IMG/VR virus record: IMGVR_UViG_3300010151_004451
Span: 1 to 21,702 of that record
DNA from: a virus
Strand: one strand, 5' to 3'
Length of the DNA: 21,702 bases
The notes beneath the pieces were generated by a model, which saw only the letters and a list, made by a program, of their open reading frames with translations, had not been told where the DNA came from and made no database searches. A program made the translations under genes and the position numbers. This document shows, piece by piece, positions 170 through 17,592 of the stretch. Every line of letters starts with the position of its first letter. Positions within the stretch are counted from its first letter, which is position 1.

Positions 170-524
170 AGAATTTGTAAATAAAAATAAAGGTTTATAT
201 TTAGAGAAATCTAAAACCACTGATATAGATTGGGATGGTACATCAAGATACCCATTTTTTTCTACAGATAATTTTCCTGGATGTAATAAAGGATGGTTTA
301 CATACAGGATTGATGATGCTAATAATATATTCATTATTGGTTCTTTATTTTATTCTGGAAATAATAAAGAGTCTACAAATAATGCCTTTGGTTTTCTTAA
401 ACAATTTGCAAAAAGGAAAAATTGTAATAAAATTAAATTTTACACTTCACGTAATGGTAAGATATGGGAAAGGAGATTTAAAGATATGAAAATAACAGGT
501 TGGCGTATGGAGGTAGATTTATAA
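162..524 (+). CDS. Hypothetical 120-aa protein, possibly GNAT-like
   Basis: This ORF encodes 120 aa from a TTG start. The only other in-frame option before the upstream stop is an ATA codon, so TTG is the best start; an AAAGAGA sequence lies about 12 bases before it. The C-terminal half has a hydrophobic strand (NIFIIGSLFY), then a helix and strand (GFLKQFAKRKNCNKIKFYTS), then WERRFKDMKITGWRMEVDL. This order recalls the second half of small phage GNAT-fold proteins, where an Ala/Lys-rich helix precedes a basic 'Gc..i.f.s..gWer' segment. The N-terminal acetyl-CoA-binding part is not evident, so enzyme activity is not claimed. It ends in TAATG, shared with the next gene's start. The acetyltransferase link is a weak inference. 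Confidence 0.6.
   Translation: MDKEFVNKNKGLYLEKSKTTDIDWDGTSRYPFFSTDNFPGCNKGWFTYRIDDANNIFIIGSLFYSGNNKESTNNAFGFLKQFAKRKNCNKIKFYTSRNGKIWERRFKDMKITGWRMEVDL
509..514 (+). promoter_or_regulatory. Ribosome binding site that fixes the start of the 865-aa tail gene
   Basis: A perfect GGAGGT lies 9 bases before ATG 524. The open frame reaches back to a TTG at 500, but that start would place this strong Shine-Dalgarno inside the gene. ATG 524 also overlaps the upstream stop as TAATG. Confidence 0.8.
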
Positions 525-3121
525 TGGGTGGCTTAGGTGGTGCTGATTTTAGTACATTAGGCTCTGGGAAAGCGGGAAGTACAACTGCCTTTACAGGTAC
601 ATCCTCAACACAGACTCCAACGCCCACAACTCCCCTAATGACTCCAACAGGGACAACTGATTTTACCACGCTTGACATGGGGGTTGGTGTAGAAAATGTT
701 GCTACTCCGCCAAGTGAAACTTTTCTCACTTCTTCCAAGTCATCTGAATGGGTTAAAACAGCACAAGCTGGAGCACAAGCTTTAGAGTTAGCAGCTCAGA
801 GGCAAGCAGGTGATGTTCAATTAAATGCTGCTGCATCTCTTCCATCTATTTCAAATGTTGGTTCTTTTGCCCCAACTGGCGTTGTTAATTGGAATGCTAT
901 TCCTGGTGGCTTTCAACCTTTACCTCAAGCAGCAGGTGGTAAAAAGAAGTTGTATCAACTTTCACAGTTTCATGGAGGTATTAATCAATCCTCTTCTCCA
1001 CGTGATATAGCTGATTTTGAATGTCAAGAAGCTTCAAATGTTACATTTTCACAGGTTGGCAGAATTAAACTACTTGGAGATTGTTTAAATGAGACTAATT
1101 CATTAAAAGAATTTGCAGCCACTAATACTTCTGGCCCAAATCTTCCTGGATATGGATTATTTGAATTTAAAGCTCCTGTTGATGCAGATGGTGCTGCGGG
1201 AGAAACTACTATATTACTTACAGCTGATGGAGATCAAGTAGATAGTATGTGTACTAATATTGCTGGATCATTAGATACTAATCAAGGTTGGATTGATATA
1301 GGGGGTGCTGGGAGTGACGATGGTGACGAAGCACAAATATATTATGCTGCTGGAAATGGAGTATATGTAGCTGATGCAAATTTTGTTGGTCGCACAACTG
1401 TAAGAGCTGCAAGAATATATGTATCTAGAAATGATATAAATGCACAAGTTGATATAAGTGGATGGGAAACAGGTGCTCCACTTCTTTCCTCTCCGCACTA
1501 TGAAGATAATGGGACTACCCCAACTAGAGTAGAATTAAATACATCACATGTAGATGCTGGTGCGACTGGAAGGTTTGAAGTTACTATTATTAATTCTGGC
1601 ACAGGAACTTGGGATGGAACATATTATTTCTATCTTTCTTGGCTTTTTGATGGAGGGTGCGAAACTGGTTTAACTGCTATTGGTACTGGTGATACATTTT
1701 CTAATGAAACATGCCATTTTAATGTAAGTATGGCACATAATAATAATGACCCATGTGGAGGAAGTAAAAGAATTAATGGAGCAAGAATATATTTTAAAAA
1801 AAGTGGTACATCAGAAAGATGGCTTTTAGGGGAAGTTAGCTTAATTGATGGTGTCAAAGGAGCACTTGATTCTACGTTTACCCCTTGGTATACAGCTGGT
1901 ACAAGTCTATATGACCTAGAGGATGAAATTATATTTGAAAATCCTCCTGAAGTATATTCATATGCTTCATTAAATGGATATTATGCAAATGAAGTGTACA
2001 CTAAGTCTCCTGATGCTACTGGTACTAGATCAGACCCAATTCCAGTACATTATAAAACATGTGTAGTTGGGCAAGCAGGAATTGTATTTATTGGAAATGT
2101 TATGTTCGATAGTAAGCATATGCCTGATTCTATGATGTTTTCAATGCCAGGAAAGCCTGCGGTATTTCCTAAGTTTAATGTATTTGATTCGCCATCCTCT
2201 GATGGAAGCGGGATAACAGCTCTTGCAGCATTCCAAGATAAGATATTGCAGTTTAAACAAAATGCAATGTATGTTATAAACGTATCAAATCCTGCACAGT
2301 TTTATGCACAATCTTCATTTAGAGATTGCGGTGTATTTAATTCATGTCAAGTATTTACTACTTCATTTGGAGTTATATTTGTAAATAAAAATGGATGTTT
2401 TATTTATGATGGGCAGAAAGTTATTTCACTTACAGGTGGTAAATTTGATTGGCTTAATCAATCAGGAGTTTCTGAAGCGACTTCAAATATTAGCACTGCT
2501 CAAGTTCCTTGTATTGGATATGATCCACGATCTCAAAGCATTATTATACTTAAAAATATTGGAGATGATGCTGATACTACATCGCTTACAAATGAAGGTG
2601 CATGGGTTTATAATATGGCAACACAATCGTGGACAGAAGGTTCTGATATGATTATAAATGGAAATGGTGTAAGGCATACTAATTTTATTATAACATCAGA
2701 AGGTTACTTATCAATTAAAGCTAGTAATGATGCCACACTTTTAAATTATAATCATGATAAATCTGTTGATACTGGTGCACAAACAATTACATATATAACA
2801 AAAGATTTAGACTTTGGTCTTCCAACGCAAACAAAAAAGATATTTAAAATCTATGTTACCTATAAAGGTGATGGAAGTAGTGTTACTGTTACCTATGGTG
2901 CTGATGGTGATACAACTCCAACAGAAGCTTTAACAAATAGTGAAAACAGTGGAGCAACACTTACAAGTGCTGGTGTAACAGATCACAATGTAGCAACTTT
3001 TACGCTCAATTCTCATCCTTCAGCCCTTAAAAGTATTGCACTTAAATTTACAGGATCAGCAGCAGCAGATTTTGAGATAAATGATATTTCAATACTATAT
3101 AGAGTGAGACCAATCAAATGA
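524..3121 (+). CDS. Tail nozzle / stabilisation-like structural protein (P22 gp10 or T7 gp12 type)
   Basis: This gene encodes 865 aa from ATG 524. Residues 1-120 are low-complexity Gly/Ser/Thr/Ala. From about residue 140 the segment KKLYQLSQFHGGINQ, then SPRDIADFECQEASNV and GRIKLLGD, matches the opening typical of podovirus tail nozzle and P22 gp10-like stabilisation proteins ('G.n....p.di...e...a.NV....GRi...G'). Beta-strand-rich sequence follows. Around residues 566-645, ALAAFQDKILQFKQNAMYVI and then GVIFVNKNGCFIYDGQKVIS resemble propeller-type repeats in those families. No signal peptide or membrane segment is seen. It sits directly before the fibre gene (ATGA overlap), as expected for a tail component that may anchor fibres. 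The exact family (gp10, gp12 or a related aquatic-phage group) is inferred from pattern only. Confidence 0.65.
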   Translation: MGGLGGADFSTLGSGKAGSTTAFTGTSSTQTPTPTTPLMTPTGTTDFTTLDMGVGVENVATPPSETFLTSSKSSEWVKTAQAGAQALELAAQRQAGDVQLNAAASLPSISNVGSFAPTGVVNWNAIPGGFQPLPQAAGGKKKLYQLSQFHGGINQSSSPRDIADFECQEASNVTFSQVGRIKLLGDCLNETNSLKEFAATNTSGPNLPGYGLFEFKAPVDADGAAGETTILLTADGDQVDSMCTNIAGSLDTNQGWIDIGGAGSDDGDEAQIYYAAGNGVYVADANFVGRTTVRAARIYVSRNDINAQVDISGWETGAPLLSSPHYEDNGTTPTRVELNTSHVDAGATGRFEVTIINSGTGTWDGTYYFYLSWLFDGGCETGLTAIGTGDTFSNETCHFNVSMAHNNNDPCGGSKRINGARIYFKKSGTSERWLLGEVSLIDGVKGALDSTFTPWYTAGTSLYDLEDEIIFENPPEVYSYASLNGYYANEVYTKSPDATGTRSDPIPVHYKTCVVGQAGIVFIGNVMFDSKHMPDSMMFSMPGKPAVFPKFNVFDSPSSDGSGITALAAFQDKILQFKQNAMYVINVSNPAQFYAQSSFRDCGVFNSCQVFTTSFGVIFVNKNGCFIYDGQKVISLTGGKFDWLNQSGVSEATSNISTAQVPCIGYDPRSQSIIILKNIGDDADTTSLTNEGAWVYNMATQSWTEGSDMIINGNGVRHTNFIITSEGYLSIKASNDATLLNYNHDKSVDTGAQTITYITKDLDFGLPTQTKKIFKIYVTYKGDGSSVTVTYGADGDTTPTEALTNSENSGATLTSAGVTDHNVATFTLNSHPSALKSIALKFTGSAAADFEINDISILYRVRPIK

Positions 3122-4437
3122 GTTGGGGTAATCCAAGAAGACCAAAGATTAGATATGGTGTCATTTCTTTTCCTAATGCAAGAGAGGGAAGTGATGGTGA
3201 TATACAGATAAGAGAGACAAATCTAGGAGCTAAGTTATTTGGAAAGGTTGGTGGGAAGTGGTATGGACAACCACTAACTGCGACAGAAGGTGCTCCAATC
3301 ACAAGAATTGGTGTAAAATTATCAAATCATCTTGCTATTAGTTCTGATAAATTAGAATTTATAAAAGATTCTGTTTCAATGTTATCTATAACAAGTGATG
3401 GTGATATTAATCTGAATGGTCAGATTAATTTAACTAGTAAGAAAATTGGCGGTGCAGATGGAGGTAATGTTGTTATTGGAATTCGCAATAGCAATAAAGG
3501 ACAATATAATGTTTTATTAGGATACGAAGCAGGCAAAAATATAGCTGATCTTGGCTCTAACTATGCTGAAGCGAATGTTTGCATTGGTGGAAATACTGGT
3601 CAAAATTTAACAGCTCAATTAGCATCTGCCATGGCTTCTGAGAATGTATTTATCGGAGTTAATGCTGGAAAAGCTGCTGTATCTTCAAGACGTAATGTTG
3701 CCATTGGGTCAGGTGCTATGGATACAGCATCTAGTTCAAGCGAAAATGTAATTATAGGCTATCGAGCTGGTGAACATGCAGATTTTGAAGGGAATAGGAA
3801 TATATTTCTTGGTCTTGAGTCAGCCGATACCATAACAACTGGTGAAAATAATATTTGTATTGGGTATCTTTCGGATGGAGCTGCTGCTGTAGATGAACAA
3901 ATTGCTATTGGTCACGCAGCTGTTTGCACAGGACAATATGGCATCTCAATTGGTGATGGTACTTCTGCTGCTTCTGATCATATGGTTATTGGTAGGGCGG
4001 GTGCAGGTAATTATTGGTCTATTGATTTTACTTCTAGTACTACTTGGGCACATAGTTCAGATTTAAGAATGAAAAGAAATATTCAAGATGATACTTTAGG
4101 GTTATCTTTTATAAATGATTTAAAAACTAAAACATTTCAATATAAATCGGCAGAAGAATTTCCTGAAGAATGGGGAAATTATACCATAGATGAGAATGAT
4201 AATAAAAAATATCCAAAGATGCATGATAAAGTTATGCATGGCATGATAGCTCAAGATGTAAAAGCAGCATTAGATAAAGCTGATGTTGATACATTTGGAG
4301 CATGGATGGAAGACGAAAAAGGTATTCAACGATTAGCTTCAGGAGATTTTGTCTATCCTCTCATAAAATCAGTACAAGAATTATCAGCAAAGATAGATAC
4401 AATGCAAACAGAAATTAATAATTTAAAAGCGGAGTAA
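3118..4437 (+). CDS. Tail fibre/spike with C-terminal S74 intramolecular chaperone
   Basis: This 439-aa protein starts in an ATGA overlap with the upstream stop. Residues 1-55 (SDGDIQIRETNLGAKLFGKV.GKWYGQPL) match the attachment-proximal region of many aquatic phage fibres. Residues about 115-305 carry repeats of the pattern N-[VI]-x-[IVL]-G-x-x-[AS], for example ENVFIGVNAG, RNVAIGSGAM, ENVIIGYRAG and ENNICIGYLS, suggesting a trimeric beta-roll or beta-helix shaft. The peptidase S74 domain starts near residue 312: SSDLRMKRNI contains the likely Ser314/Lys319 autocleavage dyad with the five-residue spacing known from endosialidase chaperones. MIAQDV and GDFVYPLIKSVQEL follow, and a C-terminal coiled coil ends the protein. 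It probably trimerises and cuts off its own chaperone to give a mature receptor-binding fibre. Confidence 0.9.
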   Translation: MSWGNPRRPKIRYGVISFPNAREGSDGDIQIRETNLGAKLFGKVGGKWYGQPLTATEGAPITRIGVKLSNHLAISSDKLEFIKDSVSMLSITSDGDINLNGQINLTSKKIGGADGGNVVIGIRNSNKGQYNVLLGYEAGKNIADLGSNYAEANVCIGGNTGQNLTAQLASAMASENVFIGVNAGKAAVSSRRNVAIGSGAMDTASSSSENVIIGYRAGEHADFEGNRNIFLGLESADTITTGENNICIGYLSDGAAAVDEQIAIGHAAVCTGQYGISIGDGTSAASDHMVIGRAGAGNYWSIDFTSSTTWAHSSDLRMKRNIQDDTLGLSFINDLKTKTFQYKSAEEFPEEWGNYTIDENDNKKYPKMHDKVMHGMIAQDVKAALDKADVDTFGAWMEDEKGIQRLASGDFVYPLIKSVQELSAKIDTMQTEINNLKAE

Positions 4438-4441
4438 AGTT

Positions 4442-5527
4442 ATGGCAATACAAACAGGAGGTTTTCTCAAAAGGGCATTGGAAAAGGAATCAAGAGCCAA
4501 GCTTGCAGCAGACTATAAAGCACAAGCAGCGAGAGCAAAAAAGCGTAGTAAATGGAGCAAAATGTTAGGTGGTATCGGAGGTAAGCTTTTAGGTACTGCT
4601 GCTACAGGTTTATTTGGCTTAACTGGTTTTGGAGTACCAATTGCAATGGCTCTTAGTTCTATGGCTGCAAAAAAGGGTGCACATGAAGCAACTAGAGGTA
4701 TGGCTGCTGATGCAAGCAAATTAAAATCTGATAAATATGGATTTGCAGCTGGCGATCTAGCAACTTATAAAGAAGGTTTGAAAGCACAGATGGCAACTGA
4801 TCCTTTTAAGCAGCATGGTGCTCTTGGACAAGAACTTGCAACTGCTTTTATTTCTTCCGCTATGGCTGGTGATCTTAAAGGTGCTACTAAACAGATAGGG
4901 AGTGGTAAGGATATTGGAAAAGCATTTATTGATCCTAAAGCAACAAAGGGTCTCGAAGGGATGAAAGAATCGCTCATGGATTTAGTTCCAGGATATAAGA
5001 AATTTACTGGAAAAACGATGGAACCAGAGAAACTTAGTGAAGCTGCACAGGAACATTTACAAGAAGTAACTTCTGGCATTGGAGATTACGGTAGCGGAAA
5101 ACTTGAATTGCCAATGGCAGCAGATTCATCAGCTTTTAATATTCCACCAATGGCAACTTCCCCAGTTATTCAAGAAGAATGGATACCTGAGTTTGGACAA
5201 GCAACTCTAAATACACCAGATTCAAATCTTATAACTTCAAGTCCCCAAGATTCTATCTTTTCAGGCGAAGACTTTCCATCATTAATATCTGATGAGTACT
5301 TTGAAAAAAGTAAAAAGAAATCTAGCGGTTGGGGACAATCACAAAGTAAGGAATTTAGAGATAAATTTGAATTTCAATATGGTGGTCAAGTTCCAAAGTA
5401 TTATGGTGGAGGTATGACTGGGGAAGAAAATGCTCCTCCTACAATTGCAAATTATTTTGAAATGCAAGGCATGTCACTTGGTGGAAGTAATAAGAAATCA
5501 CTATCACAGATGTTAGGACAAAAATAA
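4442..5527 (+). CDS. Putative virion-associated protein, 361 aa, unknown function
   Basis: This gene encodes 361 aa; GGAG at 4431-4434 is 7 bases before the ATG. The N-terminus is basic and helical (about residues 8-40, ESRAKLAADYKAQAARAKKR). Residues 40-75 form a hydrophobic Gly/Ala stretch (GGIGGKLLGTAATGLFGLTG, then PIAMALSSMAA) that could insert into membrane or line a channel. The middle is Ala/Gly/Lys-rich helix and the C-terminal third is polar. Near the end it carries QYGGQVPKYYGGG (residues 312-324), a motif partly shared with the next gene. Position between the fibre and the giant protein suggests an internal virion or tail-tip role. No enzyme motif is seen and no family name can be given. 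Confidence 0.75.
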   Translation: MAIQTGGFLKRALEKESRAKLAADYKAQAARAKKRSKWSKMLGGIGGKLLGTAATGLFGLTGFGVPIAMALSSMAAKKGAHEATRGMAADASKLKSDKYGFAAGDLATYKEGLKAQMATDPFKQHGALGQELATAFISSAMAGDLKGATKQIGSGKDIGKAFIDPKATKGLEGMKESLMDLVPGYKKFTGKTMEPEKLSEAAQEHLQEVTSGIGDYGSGKLELPMAADSSAFNIPPMATSPVIQEEWIPEFGQATLNTPDSNLITSSPQDSIFSGEDFPSLISDEYFEKSKKKSSGWGQSQSKEFRDKFEFQYGGQVPKYYGGGMTGEENAPPTIANYFEMQGMSLGGSNKKSLSQMLGQK

Positions 5528-5529
5528 CT

Positions 5530-6654
5530 ATGTCTAAAATATACAATGAAATAATAATTGATATGAATCCAGAGTCTTCTACCTTTGAGGAGACGTTGTA
5601 TGAAGATAGCTTTGAGTATAGTGGTGATATGATGTTTGCACAAGGTGCTAATCAGCGACTTCGTGGTAAAGAGCAACTTTCGACGGGAGGTGTTCCCCCT
5701 TCAACACAGCCCGATGCTGATGAATATCTTTCAAAAGTGGGACAAAATTCAATAAAATACGAAGGGAAATATTATTATTATTATGCAGATGGGTTTAAAG
5801 AAATAGACCCTTCCACTGCACCTGGTTTTAACGAGACAAGTTATAAGGATGTGACAGCTCTAATGAAAGACTTTGAGGGCGGTTCTCCATATGGAGCACC
5901 TACTTTAACAAAGGCAGATTTTATTAATGCAGATGGAAGCCAAAAATCTCCAGACGAGGTTGCAGATGCACTTTTCGCAGCTAATGCTGGTAAAGGTAAA
6001 GGTGGGACAGATGCCCAAGGAAATCCTAAAAATTGGTCAAGGGATGAGATAAAAGAACAAGTTCTGAAACTTATGCCAAAATATCTTGGGCCATCACAAG
6101 AAGAACAGGATTTTATTACACAGCAATACGGTGGTCAATTTCAAGTAGGTGGAGGGAGGCATGGTGAAGAGTCAGGGGTATATGGCTTTGAAGAGTTTGG
6201 GCCAGGGCCAGATGGTATATATGGAACACCAGATGATCCAGGTGGTATATCGGGTCAAGAGGCTGGTCTTTCAATGCGAGCTGCTGGAGCTACAAAAGAA
6301 GCTGGGCTTAGAGAGCTTCAAAAAGGGGCAAAGCAAGTTGGTGCTGCGGGTCAAGCTGCAATTTCTACTGGAATGGCTTCTAAGATGAGAGATGTCGCAG
6401 AAGGTCAAGAATCCTTAGCCAAGGGCTTAGGTACTACATATGAAGCATATGGTGCTGCGGAAGATGTCTATGGTCTTGCAGGGGAAAAAGCTAAACTTGC
6501 AGCAGAAAAAGCAGCACATGGTCTTACTGGCACCGCAGAGAAAGAATTTGAAACCGATGTAGCAAATATATTTTTTGCTAAAGGTGGAAGAGTCCCAAGT
6601 AGTAAAAGTTTCTCACATTTTTTAACACAGTTACCAGACGCAGGGGGAATTTAA
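5530..6654 (+). CDS. Putative virion protein, 374 aa, with a Gly/Asp loop and GGRVP tail motif
   Basis: This gene begins 2 bases after the previous stop and encodes 374 aa. The N-terminal part is acidic, with a tyrosine run (KYYYYYADGFKEIDP, about residues 79-93). Residues 198-209 read QQYGGQFQVGGG, echoing QYGGQ in the upstream protein. Residues 224-238 (GPGPDGIYGTPDDPG) look like a Gly/Asp calcium-binding-type loop as in thrombospondin-3-like repeats; binding is inferred only. Residues 245-340 are Ala/Gly-rich helix with periodic AAGATKEAG / AKQVGAAG / AAEDVYGLAG blocks. The C-terminus has FAKGGRVPSS (residues 349-358). Virion or ejection-apparatus membership is inferred from operon position; no family is recognised. 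Confidence 0.75.
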   Translation: MSKIYNEIIIDMNPESSTFEETLYEDSFEYSGDMMFAQGANQRLRGKEQLSTGGVPPSTQPDADEYLSKVGQNSIKYEGKYYYYYADGFKEIDPSTAPGFNETSYKDVTALMKDFEGGSPYGAPTLTKADFINADGSQKSPDEVADALFAANAGKGKGGTDAQGNPKNWSRDEIKEQVLKLMPKYLGPSQEEQDFITQQYGGQFQVGGGRHGEESGVYGFEEFGPGPDGIYGTPDDPGGISGQEAGLSMRAAGATKEAGLRELQKGAKQVGAAGQAAISTGMASKMRDVAEGQESLAKGLGTTYEAYGAAEDVYGLAGEKAKLAAEKAAHGLTGTAEKEFETDVANIFFAKGGRVPSSKSFSHFLTQLPDAGGI

Positions 6655-6655
6655 T

Positions 6656-8227
6656 ATGGCACAAGATGTATGGACAATGATAAATAGAGAACTTGAAAAA
6701 GCTCAACGAGCTTCAAGTGGTAAGTCTGAAACTCCTTTTCTTGACGCAATATCCGAAACAATGAAATATGCAAAAGAAGATAGACAATGGAAAGAGCGAA
6801 AGAACTTGCAAAGACAAGAGATTATAGCTACATTTTCTAAGGGTCTTGGAACAATGTATAATAATGATGATGTTGCTATACAGAGAGATAGAGCACAATC
6901 ATATATGGATAAATATAGCGGTGACATGGATGAAGCTACAATGGAAATGGCTCAGATGACAATTGATAATTTTAATTTACAAGAAGAGAAGAATAATAGC
7001 TTTGCACAATTTAGTGCTCGTCAAGATAGTGAGATGAAAAAAGTTACTGATTTTACAAATTCTATTGAAATTGGTAAAGAGTATTCTGATGAAGATTGGG
7101 CAGAGAAGGTTGAAGAATTTAGAGGAGTAGTAGATGGTTATACAGATTATACGGAAAAATTTGCAGAAAAACATTCTGAAAGATTAAGTCATCCTTCTTA
7201 TCAACATATAAACCAAAACCTTGCTCATGGTGCTTATATTAATCAATTTACTCTTGATTCATTTTTTGATGGAAAGAAGCTAGATGAAGTAGAATATAAA
7301 GCTCGTAAACAATCTATTGCAAGCAATTCAATAAAACCTGTAACTGATTATAATCGAAGAGAAGCTTCATTTATTAAGACTGCTAGTGATAATTTACTTT
7401 CAAAGATAGACGCTAACGTTCAATCATATAAAAATATTGAAGCTCAGATAAGAGGTGAAGCACTTATTCAAATACCAGGTGGTGATCCTGTATATTTTAA
7501 AGAACTTTCTGGCCCTGAACAAGAAGCTTTAGAAGATCAACTATTTACACTATCGGGGCAGATAAAACTTGATGATAAGACGCAGGAAACGAGAGTTGGT
7601 GAAAGTTACATTGGATACCAATATCCAAATTTGTTTCCAAAGACTGAAACTCCTCCTCAAGGAACTCCTCCTCCAGGAACTCCTCTTCCTCCTAAAACTC
7701 CTGGTGGGCAAGATCAAGCTAAAATTACAGATCAAGATGTTTCTAATATACAGTTATATATGAAAGATAGCAAGGGATATAATAGCACAATAGCTAAGGA
7801 GTTTAGAAAATCAAGAAGGGGTAAAGAAGATATGACTCTAAAAGAGTTTTTAGAGAATAGACCTGACTTAGCAGGGGATATAAAGGATGCTTACGAGCAT
7901 AAAATTATATTAGAAGATGCAAAGAAATTTCTTGAGAAAGAATTTGATTATAATAAGATTGGTGAGACAACTTATGCTAAGGAAGATGGCAATAGAATTA
8001 GATATACTACTTACTATCTATCTCCAGATGGAAAAATAGTCTCAACTTCTGATTTAAAAAGAAGAAAAAAAGATGCTCTCAATTATTTAGGTGCAACAAT
8101 GGGAGGAAGTAGAAGCAATTGGGAAAATATGCATGATGAACTTGCAAATGCAAAATTATATAAAATAAAAAGTGTGTATGATCCTTATAAACGTGAATGG
8201 ACTGAACTAGAACGCAAGGAAGCATAA
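6656..8227 (+). CDS. Putative internal virion protein, 523 aa, helical with Pro/Thr linker
   Basis: This gene encodes 523 aa from an ATG 9 bases after an AGGGGGA ribosome site. The first ~325 residues are highly charged and predicted mainly helical (MINRELEKAQRASSG, then REDRQWKERKNLQRQE-like patterns), with no signal peptide or membrane span. Residues 332-350 form a proline/threonine linker built from near-repeats of GTPPP and TPLPP, encoded by repeated ggaactcctc units. A second charged domain follows (about 355-523), rich in Lys, Glu and Tyr. Location immediately before the giant protein and the two-domain, linker-joined layout suggest a structural or ejected protein. No catalytic motif is seen and the family is not recognised. 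Confidence 0.75.
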   Translation: MAQDVWTMINRELEKAQRASSGKSETPFLDAISETMKYAKEDRQWKERKNLQRQEIIATFSKGLGTMYNNDDVAIQRDRAQSYMDKYSGDMDEATMEMAQMTIDNFNLQEEKNNSFAQFSARQDSEMKKVTDFTNSIEIGKEYSDEDWAEKVEEFRGVVDGYTDYTEKFAEKHSERLSHPSYQHINQNLAHGAYINQFTLDSFFDGKKLDEVEYKARKQSIASNSIKPVTDYNRREASFIKTASDNLLSKIDANVQSYKNIEAQIRGEALIQIPGGDPVYFKELSGPEQEALEDQLFTLSGQIKLDDKTQETRVGESYIGYQYPNLFPKTETPPQGTPPPGTPLPPKTPGGQDQAKITDQDVSNIQLYMKDSKGYNSTIAKEFRKSRRGKEDMTLKEFLENRPDLAGDIKDAYEHKIILEDAKKFLEKEFDYNKIGETTYAKEDGNRIRYTTYYLSPDGKIVSTSDLKRRKKDALNYLGATMGGSRSNWENMHDELANAKLYKIKSVYDPYKREWTELERKEA

Positions 8228-8229
8228 AT

Positions 8230-11200
8230 ATGCCAATACCAGTAGAGGTACGAAGTGCAATTGATGAACTTCGTAGTAGAAATCCAGCAACAGCAGGTAA
8301 AAGTGATGAAAGACTTTATAGATATTTAAAGAAAAGTAATCCTTCTCTCGTATGGAGTGAAGTTGATTCTGCCGTAGAATCTAAAGGACAGCAAAGGCAA
8401 GTCGATACATCACCTTCCTTTCTAAACTCATTTCAAACATGGTTTGATTATGGAATAGATGAGAACTCTGCTGATTGGATGAAGTCTGCATACACCAATT
8501 CACTTACTGGACTTACCGAAAAGCTTGTAACTGGAAAAGAACGTTACGATTTAAAACAAGGAGAGCCAGGTGGTTATAACCCAAATATATTTGAAGATAT
8601 ATTTTCAATGGCTCTTTCCTTTCTTATGCCACTTGATTTTATGGCTATGGCTGCTGGTGGTGGTGCAGGAGGGTTAGCTCTTAAAGGCTTCGGAGTTACA
8701 GCTGCAAAAGAAGCTTCAAGAATTGGTGTTAAACAAAGCCTAAAACATGCACTTGCCGAGCAAGCTATTAAACAAGCAGGTGGACTTGCTGTATATGAAG
8801 GTGCTTTAGGGGGCGTACAGGCTGGTATTGATGGTGAAGATGTAATGGGTGCTATTGGTAAGGGTGTTGTGCATGGTGGTATTCTAGGTGGACTCGCTGG
8901 ACTTGCAGGTGGAGGGTTAGCATATCGCAATGCTTCTCTTTTAAATAAGTTTACAAAGGAAGGTAAGATAGCAACTGAAGCTGGAAAAGAAGCTTCCAAA
9001 ATGCTTTCTATTGGTGAAAAAGCATCGTTAAAAGCTACAGGTATTTTAGGTCAAGTACCTGCTGAAGCTGGGGTATTTACAGCTGCTGAGATGGCTGAAA
9101 GAATCGCTCATGGAGAAGACCTTAGACTTAGAGACCTTGGCACTGCATTCTTTAGAAACTTAGGTTTATTTACTGTTACCAAAGCACAGCACAAATTATT
9201 TAGTAAAAGCTATGAGCATTACAAACTCTTAGAAGAAGCTGAAAGACAAAAGTTTGGCGTAGATTCTGAGGGAAGACCTAATGAAGCTGCTATTTCGGAT
9301 AAAGCTGCTACGGAACATTTCAAAGAAGCAAGAGAAAAAAGAGAGCAGGGTGATGAGCTAGGTGCTATTGCTGCTGAAAGAGCAGGCGAGGAACTAAATA
9401 AACATAAAAGAGGAGTAGATGAAAAATATATAAAATTCAAAGAAGACCTCGACCAATCCAGAAATGACACTAAAACTCTTATTAAAGATCATGAATCTGG
9501 TATTCAAAAAGAATCTATACCTAGGGCAAATAAACTAATTAAAAGTGTTGAAGAGCAAATTGGTCTTGCTGAAAAACTTATTGAGCATGCTACTGATCCT
9601 GTTAACCCAATGTTTGAGGGATTACTTGAATCATTCAGACAACATAAAGAAGAACTTTTGGTTCAACGTGAGAAATGGTCAGGTGAGGCTGCTAGAAATC
9701 AAGCTTCTAAGGAAAAACCTGTTTGGTTAGAGAAAAAAATACTTGAAGAGGGTGAAAGACTTGGCATTGATATTTCAGATATTAATCTTAAAAATAGAGA
9801 GGGTAGGGCTGAGGCTACTAGTATATTAAAAGAAGAAAGATTAGACATAGCAAAAGAAAAAGGTATTGGAACTGGTCGAGCATTAGGTGCAGAACAATAT
9901 AAAGATGTTGCAACGACTTCTGCTGAAATTAAGCAAATATCAGAAAGTATAAGAGAGAAGGCTAAAGAAAAAGACTTTAAAATAAGGGAAGCGACAGAAC
10001 TTGAAAGAACAATTCTTGACTTTGATAGACCGTCAAAACAGCCTACTCATATCCCAGAAATAAAACATGATGTTACAAAAAACGCCTTACTTACATGGGT
10101 TGGTGAAGGAGAGGGAAGTCGTGGGTCTGCACGTCTTATTGCCAAGGGATTAAAATATCTTAAAAAAGATTCTATTGAGCAAGTTAAGGCAAAAGATGTA
10201 AAGAAAATCTTACAGGGGATTGATAAGCGTGATTCTAGTCTCCCTTCAAGACCAGAGGGCATGGCAACTGCTTTTGCTGAGTTTGTTGATTGGGCGGGTT
10301 ATAAAAAACTTATAGAGCCACCTTTTAGAAAAGTAGATTTATCCAATAAAGGTGTTTGGCAATTAGCAAAACAAATACGTGAACGTATTGCAGGTGAAAG
10401 AATAGAAGCTATTGGAGAAGTTGATCTTCAAAGGGATATATCAAAAAGTGTAAAAAAGCTTCCTAAATTTAAAGAATCCACTACAGAGCAAAAGGAGCTT
10501 CATGTATCTGCTGATCTTCATAGTGTAGAGGGTTTAGGTATTCGTACTGGTGAATTTAATGCTTTAACTCCAGCAAATATAAAAACAAAAAGTGTAAAAG
10601 GGAAAAATATATATTATTTCCATGTTACTCCTGGGCTTGTTAAGAAGGGTGGTGGTAATCCAAGGCCAGTTGAAATCTCTAAGCAAACTTATGATAGAAT
10701 ACAAAAAATTATAAAAGAAAATCGTGTTGGCAAAAATGAACCTATATTTAAAAGTAAAAATACTGCGGAATTAATAAAAGGTTTATATGAAGCTAATATA
10801 AAGGTTGAAGATGTAAGAAAGTTTATAGAGACAAAGGCAGATCAGGTTGGAATGACTCAAAGACAAAAAGATTTATTGTCTTTTTATCTTGGACATAGGG
10901 GTAGCTCTGAAGTTGTTACTAAGTACTATAAGGGTACTATGAAAGAATCTACTAAGGTTGAACTTAGTGGTATATTAAAAGATATTATAAGTGAAAAAAT
11001 AAGTCCAGTTGAGGGGTCATCCAAATTATCAAAATTATTTGGCACTAAGGAAATAAAATATCAACTTGAATCTGCTGCTTCTGATCTAGGTACAACTGTT
11101 AAGGAATTAAAGAAACAAATAGATCATTTCAAAAAACTTTATCCTGAACTTGATATACAATTAAAGAAAAATCTTGGAAAACTCCAAGGAGAAAATGTGC

Positions 11201-14200
11201 TTGGTCGTATTACAGGTCATCTTGTGGAAATTGCAAAGGGTCGTGCCAAAGCTGATACTATACCACATGAGGTATCTCACCATGTTGTTGACGTTCTTCG
11301 TGCATTTGGAGATAAGGGTAGTAAAGACCTTATACGTGATGGTGAACGTATGTTTAGAGGTGAAGAGAATATGGTGCAATCTATTGGGGAATATGTTGCT
11401 GGTAATCTTAAAAATAAAACAACTATTGGTAAGGTTAAGAATTTTCTTCAAAAGTTTTGGAGTCACTTAAAGCATAAATTTGGTGTTCATAATGAAGCTG
11501 ATGTTACTCGTATTCTTGGTGAAAAAGTTATAAAAGGCAAGCTTCCAGATGGTAGATTAAAAGAATTTACAACTAAATTCCAAAAGTCTAAAGAAAGCCC
11601 TGAAGCAAAAAAAGAGATAACTAAAATAAACAGAAGCATACATAAAGGTGGTGAAGAAAGTTTAGACAGAAGAGTTAGGGATGCTGATCCAAAAGGATAT
11701 GAGAAAGCAAGAATTGATATTTTTGGAACTAAAGATTTTAAAGAAAGCAACGCAACTGTTCAAGATATGCGTAGGTATGAAGAATATCTTACAAGCCATC
11801 CAGCAAATTTTGGTAACAGTAGGTCTGCCCTACCTATTGCCAAATCAATAGAACAGATAAATGAGAAGTATCATATTAACCCTGATATAGCTAAAGCTAA
11901 TTTAAAGCTTATGGGTGTGAAGGATGGTCTGTATGAGAATGCATCACCTGGGACTGTGAAAGCATATGAATCATTTGTTCGTCAAAACTATGATGCTCCA
12001 GCATTATTGGATAGAGCTTATACTGATATGTTATCACTAAAGGGATCGGAAATTGGAAAAACAAAACATCCTTGGATGTATAGATATGGCAGAGGCGTTA
12101 TGCCTGCGTGGCTTGTTCTTAGAAAATTTGGTGGTAAATATGGGGAAAGAATATCTGATAGAATGCTTGACCATGAGTGGGCAGAACATGTTCTCTTTAA
12201 AGGCCCAGGAGATCAAGCAATGCATCTTATTCAAAAAACTCTTGGGAAGGAAAAATCAAAACACATGTTTCTTTTTGACAAAGAAAGAGCTGAGAGAAAT
12301 TATAGAGAGGGCAATTTAACTCCATCACAAGTTGATTTCTATCATAAAATTTATGGTGAAAAGGGTCATATAGATAAAAAGACTGATGAGTATAGAGCAC
12401 ATCAAGCATTTAAGGATACTATGGAATTCTATTGGAAGTCATATGAAAAAGAACTTCTGAAACATCAGACTCCAGAAGGTGCTAAACGTACTATAAAGGA
12501 ATTGAGAGAAAAACATGTTGATGGTTATATGATGCGTAGATGGACAAGTGATGCTATAAAACATATTCATAAAGATCATGATATTATAACTAAACTTGTT
12601 GATAAACAAGTAGATAAACTTGCAAGAGAAAAAGCACAAAAGGAAGCTAAGACTGATACGGAAGTCAAAATATTAGAAGAAAGATATAAGAAGGATATGG
12701 AAACCAGAGATATGGCTAGGCATGAAATTTACAATGTTCTTAGATATGGATACGGACATGCAAAATTCCCTCATCTTATTCCACGTAAAGGATTGATGAA
12801 GGAGTATGTAGAGATTACAGATGCTAAAACAGGTCAACTTAAAAAAATTAAAGTATATGAAAATTCTGTAGAAGCAACTGCCGAGACTTATATATCAAGA
12901 ATGTCTAAACATCTTGCAAATGTACGTCTATTCCCTGAGTGGACTGGTGTTGGAAGTAAGTATAAGATTCGCAAAGGTACACGTCAAGAGTTAGTTGCAC
13001 TAGAGGAAGGTGCAGCAATTAGTAATTATGCACAGCTTGCCATTGAAAGACAGCTTGGTTTTGATAAAAATTTAAGAGAATCTATGGCAGAGCCTATATA
13101 TAAAGGTGGTAAAATGGCAGCAGCTGTATCAGCTGTTATTGGACTTTCATCTCCTCTCGCTGGCCTTAAAAACCTTGCTATTGGTATTCCACGTGCAATC
13201 GGTGTTATGGGAACTTGGAGAACAATGAAGGGAATAAAACATGCATTTACTGCTCAAGCATGGAACGAAGCAAGGGCAAAAGGTTATCTAGAGTATGGAG
13301 CTAAGACTTTAGAGCTTGGTTCTGTGGGTGTTGATGTTCTTGGTAAGAACTTTAATATGAGACAGTTATTTAGTTTTAATCAAATGACTAGAACTGAAAA
13401 TATAAATAGAATTATATCTTCACATGCAGGACAATTATATTTTACTGAAGTTTCTGCTAAGATGCGTGGTGAAAAGGGAACGTTTTTAATGAAGACAAAT
13501 AAAAAACGTATGAGAAGACTTATGGAAGAGGTCTGGCATCTAAGTAAGGAAGAAATAAATTTCATTGAAAAAACAAAAGACCTTACTACAAAAGAAGCTA
13601 TGGCTAAACATTCTGAGATATTAAATAAAGTAGGACATTTTTCTCACACTACTACTCAAGGTGGAACATCAACTGTACTTCTTCCTTTATGGATGTCATC
13701 ATCAGAGGCAAAGCCATTAACACTTTTCCAGAGGATGGCTATGTCTACAACAGTTGATATATATAGAAACTTTGTAAAACCAATTGCTGAGTTTGGAAAC
13801 TTTGCTCCTATGGCAAGGGCTGCTGTTGCTCATTCCGTTACTGGTTCTGCATTGTATTATGTATACAAGGAGCTGTTTGGTAAAGAGCCACCATTAGGAT
13901 CAAAGCTTACACAGGAAGATAGCTTTGACAAAATTATGTTAAATCTTTTTAGGTCGGAATTCTTCGGACTTGCTGGAGAAATTATACCTGGGCTCAATCC
14001 ATATGAAAGGGAGCTTGGAGTTCCAATTGCACAACCTGTTATAATTAGAAATCTTACAGAAGCATTAAATGAATATACTAAATGGAATGCTGGTGGTAAG
14101 TCTGGAATGCAAGCTATACAAGATTGGACAAAAAAGTCTGTAGTTGGATTAAGCCAAGTAAAACAGATATGGAGAACGCAGATGGCAGAATCAGCAGCTG

Positions 14201-14691
14201 GCAAAGAACCATACTACAAAGACTTTATGGCTATGAGATCAATGGTTAGGCAATTTAAAAAAGAACGTGAGCTTCCAATGTACTCTGGTGAGGGGACAAT
14301 AAGCAGGAGACAGCCTTATTATTATGATTTAAAAGAGGCTATGATGTTTGGTTCTGAGGAAGACGTAGCAAAAGCTTACTGGACTGCTGTTGATTTTATT
14401 GTTAGTGATATTGAGAAATTCGATCCATACACAACTCCTAATAGTAGGTATAAAAAAGCTAAGACTTCATTGAAAAATGTTATGTCTCACTACAGTCCTT
14501 TGAATATTCAGGATAAAAGAAAGGGAACTTCAAAAGCTTTATTAAATCAATTTTATGAATGGCTTTCACCTGAGAATGAAAAAAAGGCAAAGAAACTAAA
14601 GAAACAATATGAATACAAGCATAGAAATTTTCTCCGCATAGTACGTAATCGTAAGTGGAGGAGCAAATACTATGTCTATCCATACACCTAA
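8230..14691 (+). CDS. Giant polyvalent/ejection-type protein with embedded tyrosine recombinase and zincin peptidase modules
   Basis: This gene encodes 2153 aa; AAGGAAG lies about 8 bases before the ATG. Residues 1-100 are soluble. About 115-225 holds hydrophobic Gly/Ala segments (SMALSFLMPLDFMAMAAGGG; GGILGGLAGLAGGGLAY), possible membrane-insertion elements. Residues 330-600 are charged coiled coil. About 614-700 resembles a recombinase core-binding domain. About 745-905 resembles a tyrosine-recombinase catalytic domain: Arg772 (GLGIRTGEFNAL), Lys805/806 (VKKGGG), Arg863 (VEDVRKF), His889 (YLGHRG), Tyr899/900. Residues 1013-1017 are HEVSH with Glu1054 (SIGEYVAG) as likely third zinc ligand. 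About 1100-2153 is a long helical region with aromatic and hydrophobic patches (AAAVSAVIGLSSPLAG; VLLPLWMSSSEAK). Large last-gene proteins of this kind are usually packaged and ejected. Activity of either module is inferred from residues only. Confidence 0.85.
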   Translation: MPIPVEVRSAIDELRSRNPATAGKSDERLYRYLKKSNPSLVWSEVDSAVESKGQQRQVDTSPSFLNSFQTWFDYGIDENSADWMKSAYTNSLTGLTEKLVTGKERYDLKQGEPGGYNPNIFEDIFSMALSFLMPLDFMAMAAGGGAGGLALKGFGVTAAKEASRIGVKQSLKHALAEQAIKQAGGLAVYEGALGGVQAGIDGEDVMGAIGKGVVHGGILGGLAGLAGGGLAYRNASLLNKFTKEGKIATEAGKEASKMLSIGEKASLKATGILGQVPAEAGVFTAAEMAERIAHGEDLRLRDLGTAFFRNLGLFTVTKAQHKLFSKSYEHYKLLEEAERQKFGVDSEGRPNEAAISDKAATEHFKEAREKREQGDELGAIAAERAGEELNKHKRGVDEKYIKFKEDLDQSRNDTKTLIKDHESGIQKESIPRANKLIKSVEEQIGLAEKLIEHATDPVNPMFEGLLESFRQHKEELLVQREKWSGEAARNQASKEKPVWLEKKILEEGERLGIDISDINLKNREGRAEATSILKEERLDIAKEKGIGTGRALGAEQYKDVATTSAEIKQISESIREKAKEKDFKIREATELERTILDFDRPSKQPTHIPEIKHDVTKNALLTWVGEGEGSRGSARLIAKGLKYLKKDSIEQVKAKDVKKILQGIDKRDSSLPSRPEGMATAFAEFVDWAGYKKLIEPPFRKVDLSNKGVWQLAKQIRERIAGERIEAIGEVDLQRDISKSVKKLPKFKESTTEQKELHVSADLHSVEGLGIRTGEFNALTPANIKTKSVKGKNIYYFHVTPGLVKKGGGNPRPVEISKQTYDRIQKIIKENRVGKNEPIFKSKNTAELIKGLYEANIKVEDVRKFIETKADQVGMTQRQKDLLSFYLGHRGSSEVVTKYYKGTMKESTKVELSGILKDIISEKISPVEGSSKLSKLFGTKEIKYQLESAASDLGTTVKELKKQIDHFKKLYPELDIQLKKNLGKLQGENVLGRITGHLVEIAKGRAKADTIPHEVSHHVVDVLRAFGDKGSKDLIRDGERMFRGEENMVQSIGEYVAGNLKNKTTIGKVKNFLQKFWSHLKHKFGVHNEADVTRILGEKVIKGKLPDGRLKEFTTKFQKSKESPEAKKEITKINRSIHKGGEESLDRRVRDADPKGYEKARIDIFGTKDFKESNATVQDMRRYEEYLTSHPANFGNSRSALPIAKSIEQINEKYHINPDIAKANLKLMGVKDGLYENASPGTVKAYESFVRQNYDAPALLDRAYTDMLSLKGSEIGKTKHPWMYRYGRGVMPAWLVLRKFGGKYGERISDRMLDHEWAEHVLFKGPGDQAMHLIQKTLGKEKSKHMFLFDKERAERNYREGNLTPSQVDFYHKIYGEKGHIDKKTDEYRAHQAFKDTMEFYWKSYEKELLKHQTPEGAKRTIKELREKHVDGYMMRRWTSDAIKHIHKDHDIITKLVDKQVDKLAREKAQKEAKTDTEVKILEERYKKDMETRDMARHEIYNVLRYGYGHAKFPHLIPRKGLMKEYVEITDAKTGQLKKIKVYENSVEATAETYISRMSKHLANVRLFPEWTGVGSKYKIRKGTRQELVALEEGAAISNYAQLAIERQLGFDKNLRESMAEPIYKGGKMAAAVSAVIGLSSPLAGLKNLAIGIPRAIGVMGTWRTMKGIKHAFTAQAWNEARAKGYLEYGAKTLELGSVGVDVLGKNFNMRQLFSFNQMTRTENINRIISSHAGQLYFTEVSAKMRGEKGTFLMKTNKKRMRRLMEEVWHLSKEEINFIEKTKDLTTKEAMAKHSEILNKVGHFSHTTTQGGTSTVLLPLWMSSSEAKPLTLFQRMAMSTTVDIYRNFVKPIAEFGNFAPMARAAVAHSVTGSALYYVYKELFGKEPPLGSKLTQEDSFDKIMLNLFRSEFFGLAGEIIPGLNPYERELGVPIAQPVIIRNLTEALNEYTKWNAGGKSGMQAIQDWTKKSVVGLSQVKQIWRTQMAESAAGKEPYYKDFMAMRSMVRQFKKERELPMYSGEGTISRRQPYYYDLKEAMMFGSEEDVAKAYWTAVDFIVSDIEKFDPYTTPNSRYKKAKTSLKNVMSHYSPLNIQDKRKGTSKALLNQFYEWLSPENEKKAKKLKKQYEYKHRNFLRIVRNRKWRSKYYVYPYT

Positions 14692-15351: not shown

Positions 15352-16684
15352 TTTGTTGATCCTCTGTTGTTGGAGGTACGAATAGTTCGTCCTCGTTATT
15401 ATACATCTTGCATTTATCTCCATCATATGCCATTTGTATTGCTCCTGTTTCTCCGTACCTTACCTTTGCAGCTACAAGTACTAATTTGTTTTTATTCTCT
15501 GGTTTTGCTGTTGCTGGCACTTTATACGGATAGTAGACAAAGAATACATTCTCAGCAACTTGCTCAATAGCACCACTTTCTGCTAAATCTGATAATTGTG
15601 GTTGTGGATTTCCTCTTGTTTCTAAAGCTCTATTGAGCTGTGATGCTAAAATTACAACACAATTATATTCTTTTGCAATCCATTTATAGTCATTAACTAT
15701 CCGCTCTAACTGTAGTCTTCGTTGATCTTCCTTTCCTGTTGGAGTTATAAGTTGAATGTAGTCATCAAATATGACATCTGGTTTGAACTTCTTTATCTCT
15801 GTTGCAGAGGTAGGGAAGTCTCTTATCTGATCGTACATACGGAAATGCTTTGGATCATATTTCTTTGCAATATAGTCACGTACTCTATCAAGTTCTTGTA
15901 ATTGTTTCACATCATACATGCCTTGACGTATCATTCCATAAGAAAGTCTTCCAGATTCTAATGCGAGTAGTTTTTTCAAGACTTCTACGTTTGTAAGTTC
16001 TCTGTTAAACAGAATCACTTTTTGTCTACTTGAAAGTATATTCGAGAGTAAATTTAACAACATTGTAGATTTGCCATGTCCAGGTCTACCACCTACTATT
16101 GTGATTTCACCTCTCGTTAAACCACCTGCAAACTTATCAACATTCACAAAGCCAGTCTTGACAAGTAGTTTATCTGTATTTCTTATTGATTCTATAGCAT
16201 CACCAAGAGCCTCATTAATATCAAATGAGCTATCTGGTCTAAGATTTATTAGCTCTCCAATATTTGTATGGGCAGAGACAAGTACGTCTAAGGCATCTAC
16301 CTTATTATCCATTGCCTTTTCTTCTATCTCTTTAGCTGATTCAATAACAAGCCTAAGAAGGTACTTTTCATATATCTTCTTAGCATATATTTCTATCGTA
16401 CTTTCCGTACCTGCACTTTCTTTACAGTCTACAATAAATATATTATCAACCCCCATTGCTATATTAGCAGCATCTAGATTAGCAGAGATAGTCATGATGT
16501 CAATATGCTCTCTTCTTTGTATCATCCCAACAAGTATGCTCCACAGCACTTTACATCTGCTGTCGTACCACACCTCGTTTGATACAATATACTTCGCTAT
16601 ATCATTGAATTTGGAAGGATAATTAATAACAGCACCAACTACAGCAAGTTCTATCGTTACATCATTTGGAAGTTCTTTTGACAT
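15335..16684 (-). CDS. dnaB: DnaB-type replicative DNA helicase
   Basis: This 449-aa protein starts at an ATG overlapping the methyltransferase stop (TAATG), with AGGAGGAA 8 bases upstream. Residues 8-105 match the helical DnaB N-terminal domain (ELAVVGAVINYPSKFNDI). The RecA-like domain has Walker A GGRPGHGKST (198-207), the segment VILFNRELTN after it, Walker B PDVIFDDYIQLI (302-313), and ILASQLNRALETRG then LSDLAESGAIEQVAE (345-377), typical of DnaB family members. It would form a hexamer that unwinds DNA ahead of the phage or host polymerase. Length is normal for a phage DnaB. No separate primase or loader is visible here, so these are elsewhere or host-supplied. Confidence 0.95.
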   Translation of the reverse strand: MSKELPNDVTIELAVVGAVINYPSKFNDIAKYIVSNEVWYDSRCKVLWSILVGMIQRREHIDIMTISANLDAANIAMGVDNIFIVDCKESAGTESTIEIYAKKIYEKYLLRLVIESAKEIEEKAMDNKVDALDVLVSAHTNIGELINLRPDSSFDINEALGDAIESIRNTDKLLVKTGFVNVDKFAGGLTRGEITIVGGRPGHGKSTMLLNLLSNILSSRQKVILFNRELTNVEVLKKLLALESGRLSYGMIRQGMYDVKQLQELDRVRDYIAKKYDPKHFRMYDQIRDFPTSATEIKKFKPDVIFDDYIQLITPTGKEDQRRLQLERIVNDYKWIAKEYNCVVILASQLNRALETRGNPQPQLSDLAESGAIEQVAENVFFVYYPYKVPATAKPENKNKLVLVAAKVRYGETGAIQMAYDGDKCKMYNNEDELFVPPTTEDQQNEIPF

Positions 16685-17592
16685 TAGAAGAGTTCCTCCT
16701 GTGCTGTCTTAGTATTAATGAATCTTGCATAATCTTCATTAAGCTCAATTCCTATCCATTTTCTGCTAAGTCTTTTAGCTACATTTGCTGTTGTACCACT
16801 ACCCATGAAAGGGTCTAATACCACATCTCCCTCTTTTGTTCCCGCTTTTATGCAAAGTTCTGGTATTTTTTCTGGAAAGACAGCGAAGTGTGCTTCGCCA
16901 GATGATGCGGTATTTATACTCCATACACTACGTTTATTTCTATACTCTCCAGTCGGCTGCGAGTCAGCTGCCATGCTGGCAGCAAGAACAATATCTCTTC
17001 GACTATCACCTCTTGATGCTCTGTTGTCACCAACATGGACAGCCTTCTCTTGTATAGCTTCGTAGTCAAAATAATACCTAGGTTTTAATGACAGCAAGAA
17101 TATATACTCATGCGACTTGACACACCTATCCTTTACCGCTTCTGGCATAGGATTAGGTTTATGCCATATAATATCCTGACGTAAATACCATCCATCTTTT
17201 TGCAGAGAGAATGCAAGCATCCAAGGGACGCCAGATAAGTCTTTTGTCTTTAAACGAGGATGTTTAGGTGGAGCTTTGCGATGCATTCTGTAGTTTTCTC
17301 CAGTAGCATCATTAGTTATTGAGTTACCACCTTCCCAGTGGCCACCCTTTGCTCCAAAGTATGTGTCCCCTATGTTAAGCCACAGAGTACCATCATCTTT
17401 TAAAACACGTTTACATTTACGGAAAAAGGCTGTAAGTGTTAGAACGAAATCTTCTGGAACAAGTTCCTCACCAATTTGTCCACCAACTTTGTAATCACGC
17501 AGTCCCCAGTATGGGGGTGATGTAACTATTGCCTGTACGGACTTTTCTTTTACTTCTTCTATTTTTTTAAAACAATCACCAATCAGTAGCAC
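16684..17592 (-). CDS. Orphan site-specific DNA methyltransferase (N4-cytosine/N6-adenine, beta-type order)
   Basis: This gene encodes 302 aa from a GTG start; GGAG is 7 bases upstream, inside the preceding small gene. The catalytic motif TSPPYWGLRDY (residues 24-34) is near the N-terminus and the AdoMet-binding motif DPFMGSGTT (260-268) near the C-terminus, the permuted order of N6_N4 methylases; WIGIELNEDY follows. The variable middle (about 95-235) should hold target recognition. SPPY rather than DPPY leans towards N4-cytosine, but TSPPYWGLRDY enzymes of both specificities are known. No restriction endonuclease is adjacent, so it probably protects phage DNA from host restriction or marks it for regulation rather than serving a restriction-modification pair. 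Confidence 0.92.
   Translation of the reverse strand: MLLIGDCFKKIEEVKEKSVQAIVTSPPYWGLRDYKVGGQIGEELVPEDFVLTLTAFFRKCKRVLKDDGTLWLNIGDTYFGAKGGHWEGGNSITNDATGENYRMHRKAPPKHPRLKTKDLSGVPWMLAFSLQKDGWYLRQDIIWHKPNPMPEAVKDRCVKSHEYIFLLSLKPRYYFDYEAIQEKAVHVGDNRASRGDSRRDIVLAASMAADSQPTGEYRNKRSVWSINTASSGEAHFAVFPEKIPELCIKAGTKEGDVVLDPFMGSGTTANVAKRLSRKWIGIELNEDYARFINTKTAQEELF

Follow-up and report, generated by a model that had tools for sequence, protein, structure and literature searches.

The stretch of DNA analysed here (the window) comprises 21,702 nucleotides of the IMG/VR virus record IMGVR_UViG_3300010151_004451. It carries a structural block on the + strand (500-14691), which abuts a replication block on the − strand; Pfam searches of the homologous genes of a relative, L001, identified a DnaB helicase, a Sak annealing protein and an N6/N4 methylase in the latter. 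The structural block contains the following genes.

500..3121, + strand: structural-block gene with a weak match to the internal virion protein family phrog_511 (E=2.8e-4)
3118..4437, + strand: tail fibre or spike with a Peptidase_S74 chaperone (Pfam, 8.7e-10; also matched in PHROGs)
4442..8227, + strand: three genes (361, 374 and 523 aa) immediately 5' of the giant gene, syntenic in relatives L001 and L002
8230..14691, + strand: giant protein gene (2153 aa), the final gene of the block

The giant gene is a single unbroken frame of 6.5 kb and is likewise uninterrupted in its relatives. The L001 homologue of the first gene also matched phrog_511 (E=7.7e-4), the three genes of 361, 374 and 523 aa occupy the place of podoviral internal-protein genes, an assignment made by position, and in the L001 contig the genes for portal, capsid and tail fibre share the block of the giant gene. 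Because of this gene order, the giant protein is probably an ejection ('polyvalent') protein of the podovirus type. The L001 contig (L023-L025, 52775 bases) has identical ends of 113 bp and is probably a complete genome, either circular or terminally redundant.

Relatives of the giant protein were drawn from IMG/VR contigs and include near-duplicates (L006 is the same as L009, and L041 and L039 closely resemble L042 and L046, respectively). Full-length homologues were found in L001 (64 % identity in the best segment) and L002 (41 %), while others were recovered through their C-termini (L004, L006, L007, L008, L010, L012 and L022), through the recombinase-like module (L014, truncated) or through the zincin region (L039-L047). 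Pattern-based scans for relatives miss diverged members. No relatives of the giant protein were found among GenBank phages or in genome contigs.

The initial annotation described a complete tyrosine-recombinase module embedded in the 2153-aa frame, and every residue that it named was found at the position given. The features of this part of the giant gene are as follows.

9250..10029, + strand: fast-evolving charged region preceding the module, residues 341-600 (53 % identity to L001)
10051..10389, + strand: helical region at the position of a core-binding domain, residues 608-720 (four helices in low-confidence models)
10462..10944, + strand: tyrosine-recombinase-like catalytic domain, residues 745-905 (profile matches)
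10543..10545, + strand: R772, box I arginine, invariant in the window, L001 and L010 and paired with the integrase GlR
10645..10647, + strand: K806, candidate hairpin lysine, invariant in the same three members
10807..10809, + strand: E860, at the box II His position, Glu in 3/3 members and paired with the His of HxxR
10816..10818, + strand: R863, box II arginine, invariant in the three members and profile-aligned
10894..10896, + strand: H889 of the LGH motif, invariant in the three members and profile-aligned
10927..10929, + strand: Y900, candidate nucleophile, invariant in the three members
11185..11499, + strand: zincin-like peptidase domain, residues 986-1090 (HEVSH at 1013-1017; candidate third ligand E1054)

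The window-type members (the window, L001 and L010) thus retain the tyrosine-recombinase set of R, K, R, H/W and Y as R772, K806, R863, H889 and Y900. The proposed replacement of the box II His by Glu860 held in all three, none of which has His or Lys at this position. Where two candidates had been offered (Lys805/806 and Tyr899/900), K806 and Y900 proved to be conserved, whereas Y899 is replaced by F in L010. The description of the module as complete therefore stands for the catalytic set R-K-(E)-R-H-Y, but not for the box II His, which is absent, nor for the core-binding half, which was undetectable by profile. The recombinase-like region of the window shares 80 % identity with L001 and 48 % with L010. 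Against L001, dN/dS was 0.14 in residues 745-905, the lowest of the regions measured, and was highest in residues 341-600, so that purifying selection is strongest in the catalytic half. We also considered a free recombinase made from an internal start; this is unlikely, because the sole in-frame start in residues 521-700, an ATG at 678 with a weak GAGG upstream, sits within the helical region.

The homology of this domain was examined with several profile methods. PHROGs returned the integrase family phrog_216 over residues 769-866 (E=9e-4 with the whole protein), and the isolated 299 aa matched the same family at 3e-5, as well as phrog_1. As the slot sequences of relatives were too diverged from one another, such that the window-group profile did not match single relatives in hhalign, an external integrase profile was needed. 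To build it, 80 XerD loci were supplemented with other integrases of twelve of the same genomes and reduced to 70 non-redundant sequences; profiles were compared with hhalign, each against 30 column shuffles. The window group scored 29.0 against the 70 integrases (shuffles 12.6±1.5, maximum 16.4), with an alignment that pairs GIRTGE with GlRxsE, GGGNPR with the Lys hairpin, EDVR (E860-R863) with HxxR, and LGH889 with LGH. Negative controls from the same proteins, the zincin (13.4; shuffles 12.5±2.1) and the C-terminus (19.8; shuffles 14.7±2.3, maximum 20.3), did not exceed their own shuffle ranges. Relatives gave stronger signals in the same slot: that of L008, inside a 2166-aa frame, scored 61.4 (shuffled 13.6±2.3) and lay above the curated cut-off of PF00589, and L006, L007 and L043 together scored 42.0 (shuffled 12.2±2.0), the slot of L007 falling just under that cut-off. 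The profile test of the core-binding half (608-720) was negative in the window, though this half is predicted to be helical; core-binding profile matches were found in permuted relatives (described below) and in L022.

Profile and structure searches had been suggested as a check on the module, and the outcome was divided. The PHROGs and profile-profile matches supported it, whereas Pfam gave no PF00589 match to the window protein and nothing significant in the domain region, and PDB sequence searches with this protein returned nothing useful. Two AlphaFold models were of low confidence (pLDDT 48 and 56), so that the ranking of their top Foldseek matches, Cre/XerA or TopoI/integron integrase (all with E > 0.03), is no more than suggestive. 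The lack of a Pfam match and the low-confidence models would suit a chance resemblance within a helical virion protein, but we consider this extremely improbable, given a score about 11 standard deviations above the column shuffles and a relative, L008, that passes the Pfam cut-off in the same slot. Another reading that we regard as highly improbable is a domain akin to topoisomerase IB that would relax the DNA as it enters. Topoisomerase IB belongs to the same catalytic superfamily as tyrosine recombinases, it supplied the first Foldseek matches of one poor model, and the K806-R863 spacing of 57 resembles that of this enzyme. Topoisomerase IB lacks a core-binding domain and has KxxR at box II, whereas the window has ExxR, relatives carry a core-binding-type domain, and integrase profiles match directly. 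Taken together, these comparisons confirmed residues ~745-905 as a predicted tyrosine-recombinase catalytic domain of divergent sequence.

The expectation that related giant proteins would carry the same fusion was borne out. Most homologues have a tyrosine-recombinase-like domain in the same slot, between the N-terminal region and an HExxH domain of zincin type, and the recombinase-like sequences found there are mostly mutually unalignable. About half of the homologues have their box I on the C-terminal side of the catalytic tyrosine. In L004, L012, L039-L042 and L044-L047, a box I of the form TxxRxxE (e.g. LETMVNYLLKTGPRLNEV) was found between the catalytic tyrosine and the zincin; one such case is L041:6167-6925, where box I (TGPRxNE) follows the tyrosine rather than preceding the Lys hairpin. 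Box I is in its usual place, with none after the tyrosine, in the window group, L006, L007, L008 and L043. A box I motif match after the tyrosine of L010 falls inside the zincin and was dismissed as chance. L012 additionally has a VRTGE stretch at the usual box I place, which makes its permutation status less clear.

The permuted group scored 62.8 against the integrase profile (shuffled 12.0±2.2; probability 95%), and in this in-order alignment the box I region of the integrases falls into a gap. A second, out-of-order match placed integrase columns 126-142 on permuted-group columns 335-351, and the N-half alone matched at the same place with a score of 21.6 (shuffled 9.8±1.8, maximum 16.0). 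Only 13 of the 459 columns of the permuted group are invariant, and six of these are the motif positions K150, R222, R225, T355, R358 and E361. In the seven members measured, a linker of 23-54 residues joins the tyrosine to the relocated half. A circularly permuted tyrosine-recombinase catalytic domain is thus well supported in these members, but it is not proven, since Pfam scans of the separate native halves gave no integrase match and the permutation is deduced from sequence. No permuted tyrosine recombinase was described in the literature searched in full text, where the most suggestive papers apply the term to something else. The recombinase-like domain is, on these comparisons, a family-wide feature with an unusual, apparently permuted branch.

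Homologues carry the zincin-like domain behind the recombinase domain, and two of them lack the pair: L002 (9766-14409) lacks the whole slot and the zincin, and L022 (6197-11875) lacks the catalytic domain and the zincin while retaining a core-binding-like segment. The cassette is not essential, as these two relatives do without it. HExxH is kept in all homologues that retain the zincin domain. Neither Pfam nor PHROGs recognizes residues 986-1090; lacking a Pfam match, the domain was assigned by the HExxH motif and its conservation only. Most family members share the zincin domain, whose profile retrieves further giant phage proteins.

The distribution of the cassette does not follow that of the rest of the protein. 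L004 is, at 73 % identity, the nearest C-terminal relative of the window, yet it carries a slot of the permuted kind. In the C-terminal tree L004 is nested in the clade of the window, L001 and L010 (support 100/99), and the other six permuted members included form a separate clade. Between the window and L001, identity was 79-82 % in the two module domains and 53-68 % in the non-cassette regions, and synonymous divergence was also lower in the module domains. The tree position of L004, together with this likeness of the modules at low synonymous divergence, points to exchange of the recombinase-zincin cassette between close relatives.

Loss of function was also weighed: the domain may be a recombinase relic, domesticated to bind DNA without cleaving it, which would hold or guide the incoming DNA. 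Glu860 in place of the box II His, the absence of the LGH His in L004, L039 and L046, and the retention of nothing beyond a core-binding-like segment in L022 would fit such a relic. This is opposed by the retention of R, K, R and Y in the window group, by invariant R, K and R in the permuted group and by a catalytic half under tighter constraint than any other part; we therefore judge a relic to be quite unlikely.

Of the functions proposed by the initial annotation, classical integration is the least supported, because the searches turned up neither a free lysogeny recombinase nor a tRNA or a prophage copy. The reported lack of a free integrase in the window was upheld by Pfam and integrase HMM searches. 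PF00589 matches were confined to the giant proteins (ten contigs), the integrase HMM found nothing significant outside the giant proteins of four genomes, nine contigs yielded no serine recombinase, and a search for integrated copies revealed no prophage copy in genome contigs. A lysogeny integrase fused by chance to a virion protein would agree with the phage integrases that were the best PHROGs families and with contigs devoid of another integrase. It is nevertheless very unlikely, as fused delivery leaves no path to later excision, no tRNA or prophage copy accompanies it, and the apparently complete L001 contig has neither a serine recombinase nor a free tyrosine recombinase.

Since most relatives carry a recombinase-like domain in the same place, the phages of this family may deliver a DNA-cutting-and-joining enzyme along with their genome. 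The reading that we favour, to which we give an even chance, is that of an ejection-type polyvalent protein whose exchangeable cassette of recombinase and zincin performs strand transfer on the incoming phage genome. The giant protein would be ejected together with the phage genome, and the zincin would then cut the polypeptide, perhaps freeing the recombinase domain. This domain would act by the tyrosine mechanism, with R772, K806, R863, H889 and the nucleophile Y900, and its likeliest job would be site-specific strand transfer on the incoming genome, for example circularizing or resolving it before early gene expression. The sequences show that the domain is homologous to tyrosine recombinases and conserved, that it occupies a slot common to the relatives, that it is present or absent jointly with the zincin, that the cassette is exchanged and that no free recombinase was detected in the contigs searched; that the protein is packaged, ejected and cut, that the domain is catalytic and which DNA it targets are what we infer here. 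The Glu at the box II His position, the lack of the LGH His in some relatives, the dispensability of the cassette and the low confidence of the structure models count against this reading. An extended form, which we hold more tentatively, is that zincin-released recombinases are delivered with the genome and that in about half of the lineage they are permuted, with the hairpin Lys, box II Arg, His and Tyr first and the helix with box I (TGPRxNE) last, while still forming a working active site.

Polyvalent proteins, which occur in phages and conjugative elements, reportedly enter with the injected DNA and probably undergo processing by their zincins; a role in circularizing or integrating incoming DNA has been proposed for one of their domains (Iyer et al. 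2017, PMC5512222). The window protein is likewise a very large phage protein of several domains, in which a zincin-like peptidase, recognized by its motif, lies beside another enzymatic domain, whereas the text of PMC5512222 names no tyrosine recombinase or integrase domain. DdrB of phage P1, a cleaved and packaged protein (PMC5512222), shares the zincin-like domain thought to process its own carrier, but has a ParB-like domain rather than a tyrosine recombinase. Polyvalent proteins have also been described as conflict effectors (PMC5512222), and a delivered domain whose target is not the phage's own genome but the host chromosome, plasmids or competing phages would suit the fast divergence, exchange and loss of the cassette. 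We regard this as unlikely, as a tyrosine recombinase fills the slot in nearly every case, with no assortment of effector types, and this points to a single need for DNA processing that recurs.

Strand transfer on the phage's own genome, as favoured here, has a parallel in Cre of phage P1, a tyrosine recombinase able to circularize incoming phage DNA; Cre is a free enzyme produced after entry, whereas the window domain is fused within a giant protein. Compared with tyrosine recombinases such as XerC/XerD and phage integrases (PF00589, phrog_216), the window shares the motif order R-K-xxxR-LGH-Y, but its domain is embedded in a 2153-aa virion-type protein, with Glu for the box II His and an H-Y spacing of 11 instead of the usual 9, and about half of its relatives are apparently circularly permuted. 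As far as the literature searched shows, with most subscription journals outside it, a recombinase-like domain is new to the theme of entry proteins. Provided that the domain is delivered and active, site-specific recombination could take place ahead of any phage gene expression, and DNA strand transfer would join the activities of entry-phase (polyvalent) proteins. The role of the cassette is testable by comparison, because related phages differ in it, and the permuted relatives would offer a natural experiment on active-site assembly in tyrosine recombinases.

Two further observations concern genes outside the structural block of the window. A DNA methylase gene with a GTG start lies at 16684-17592 of the window, and its L001 homologue matches N6_N4_Mtase (4e-57). 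The L001 genome also encodes, at L023:7950-8957, a protein with NUMOD3 motifs, which are usually associated with homing endonucleases.
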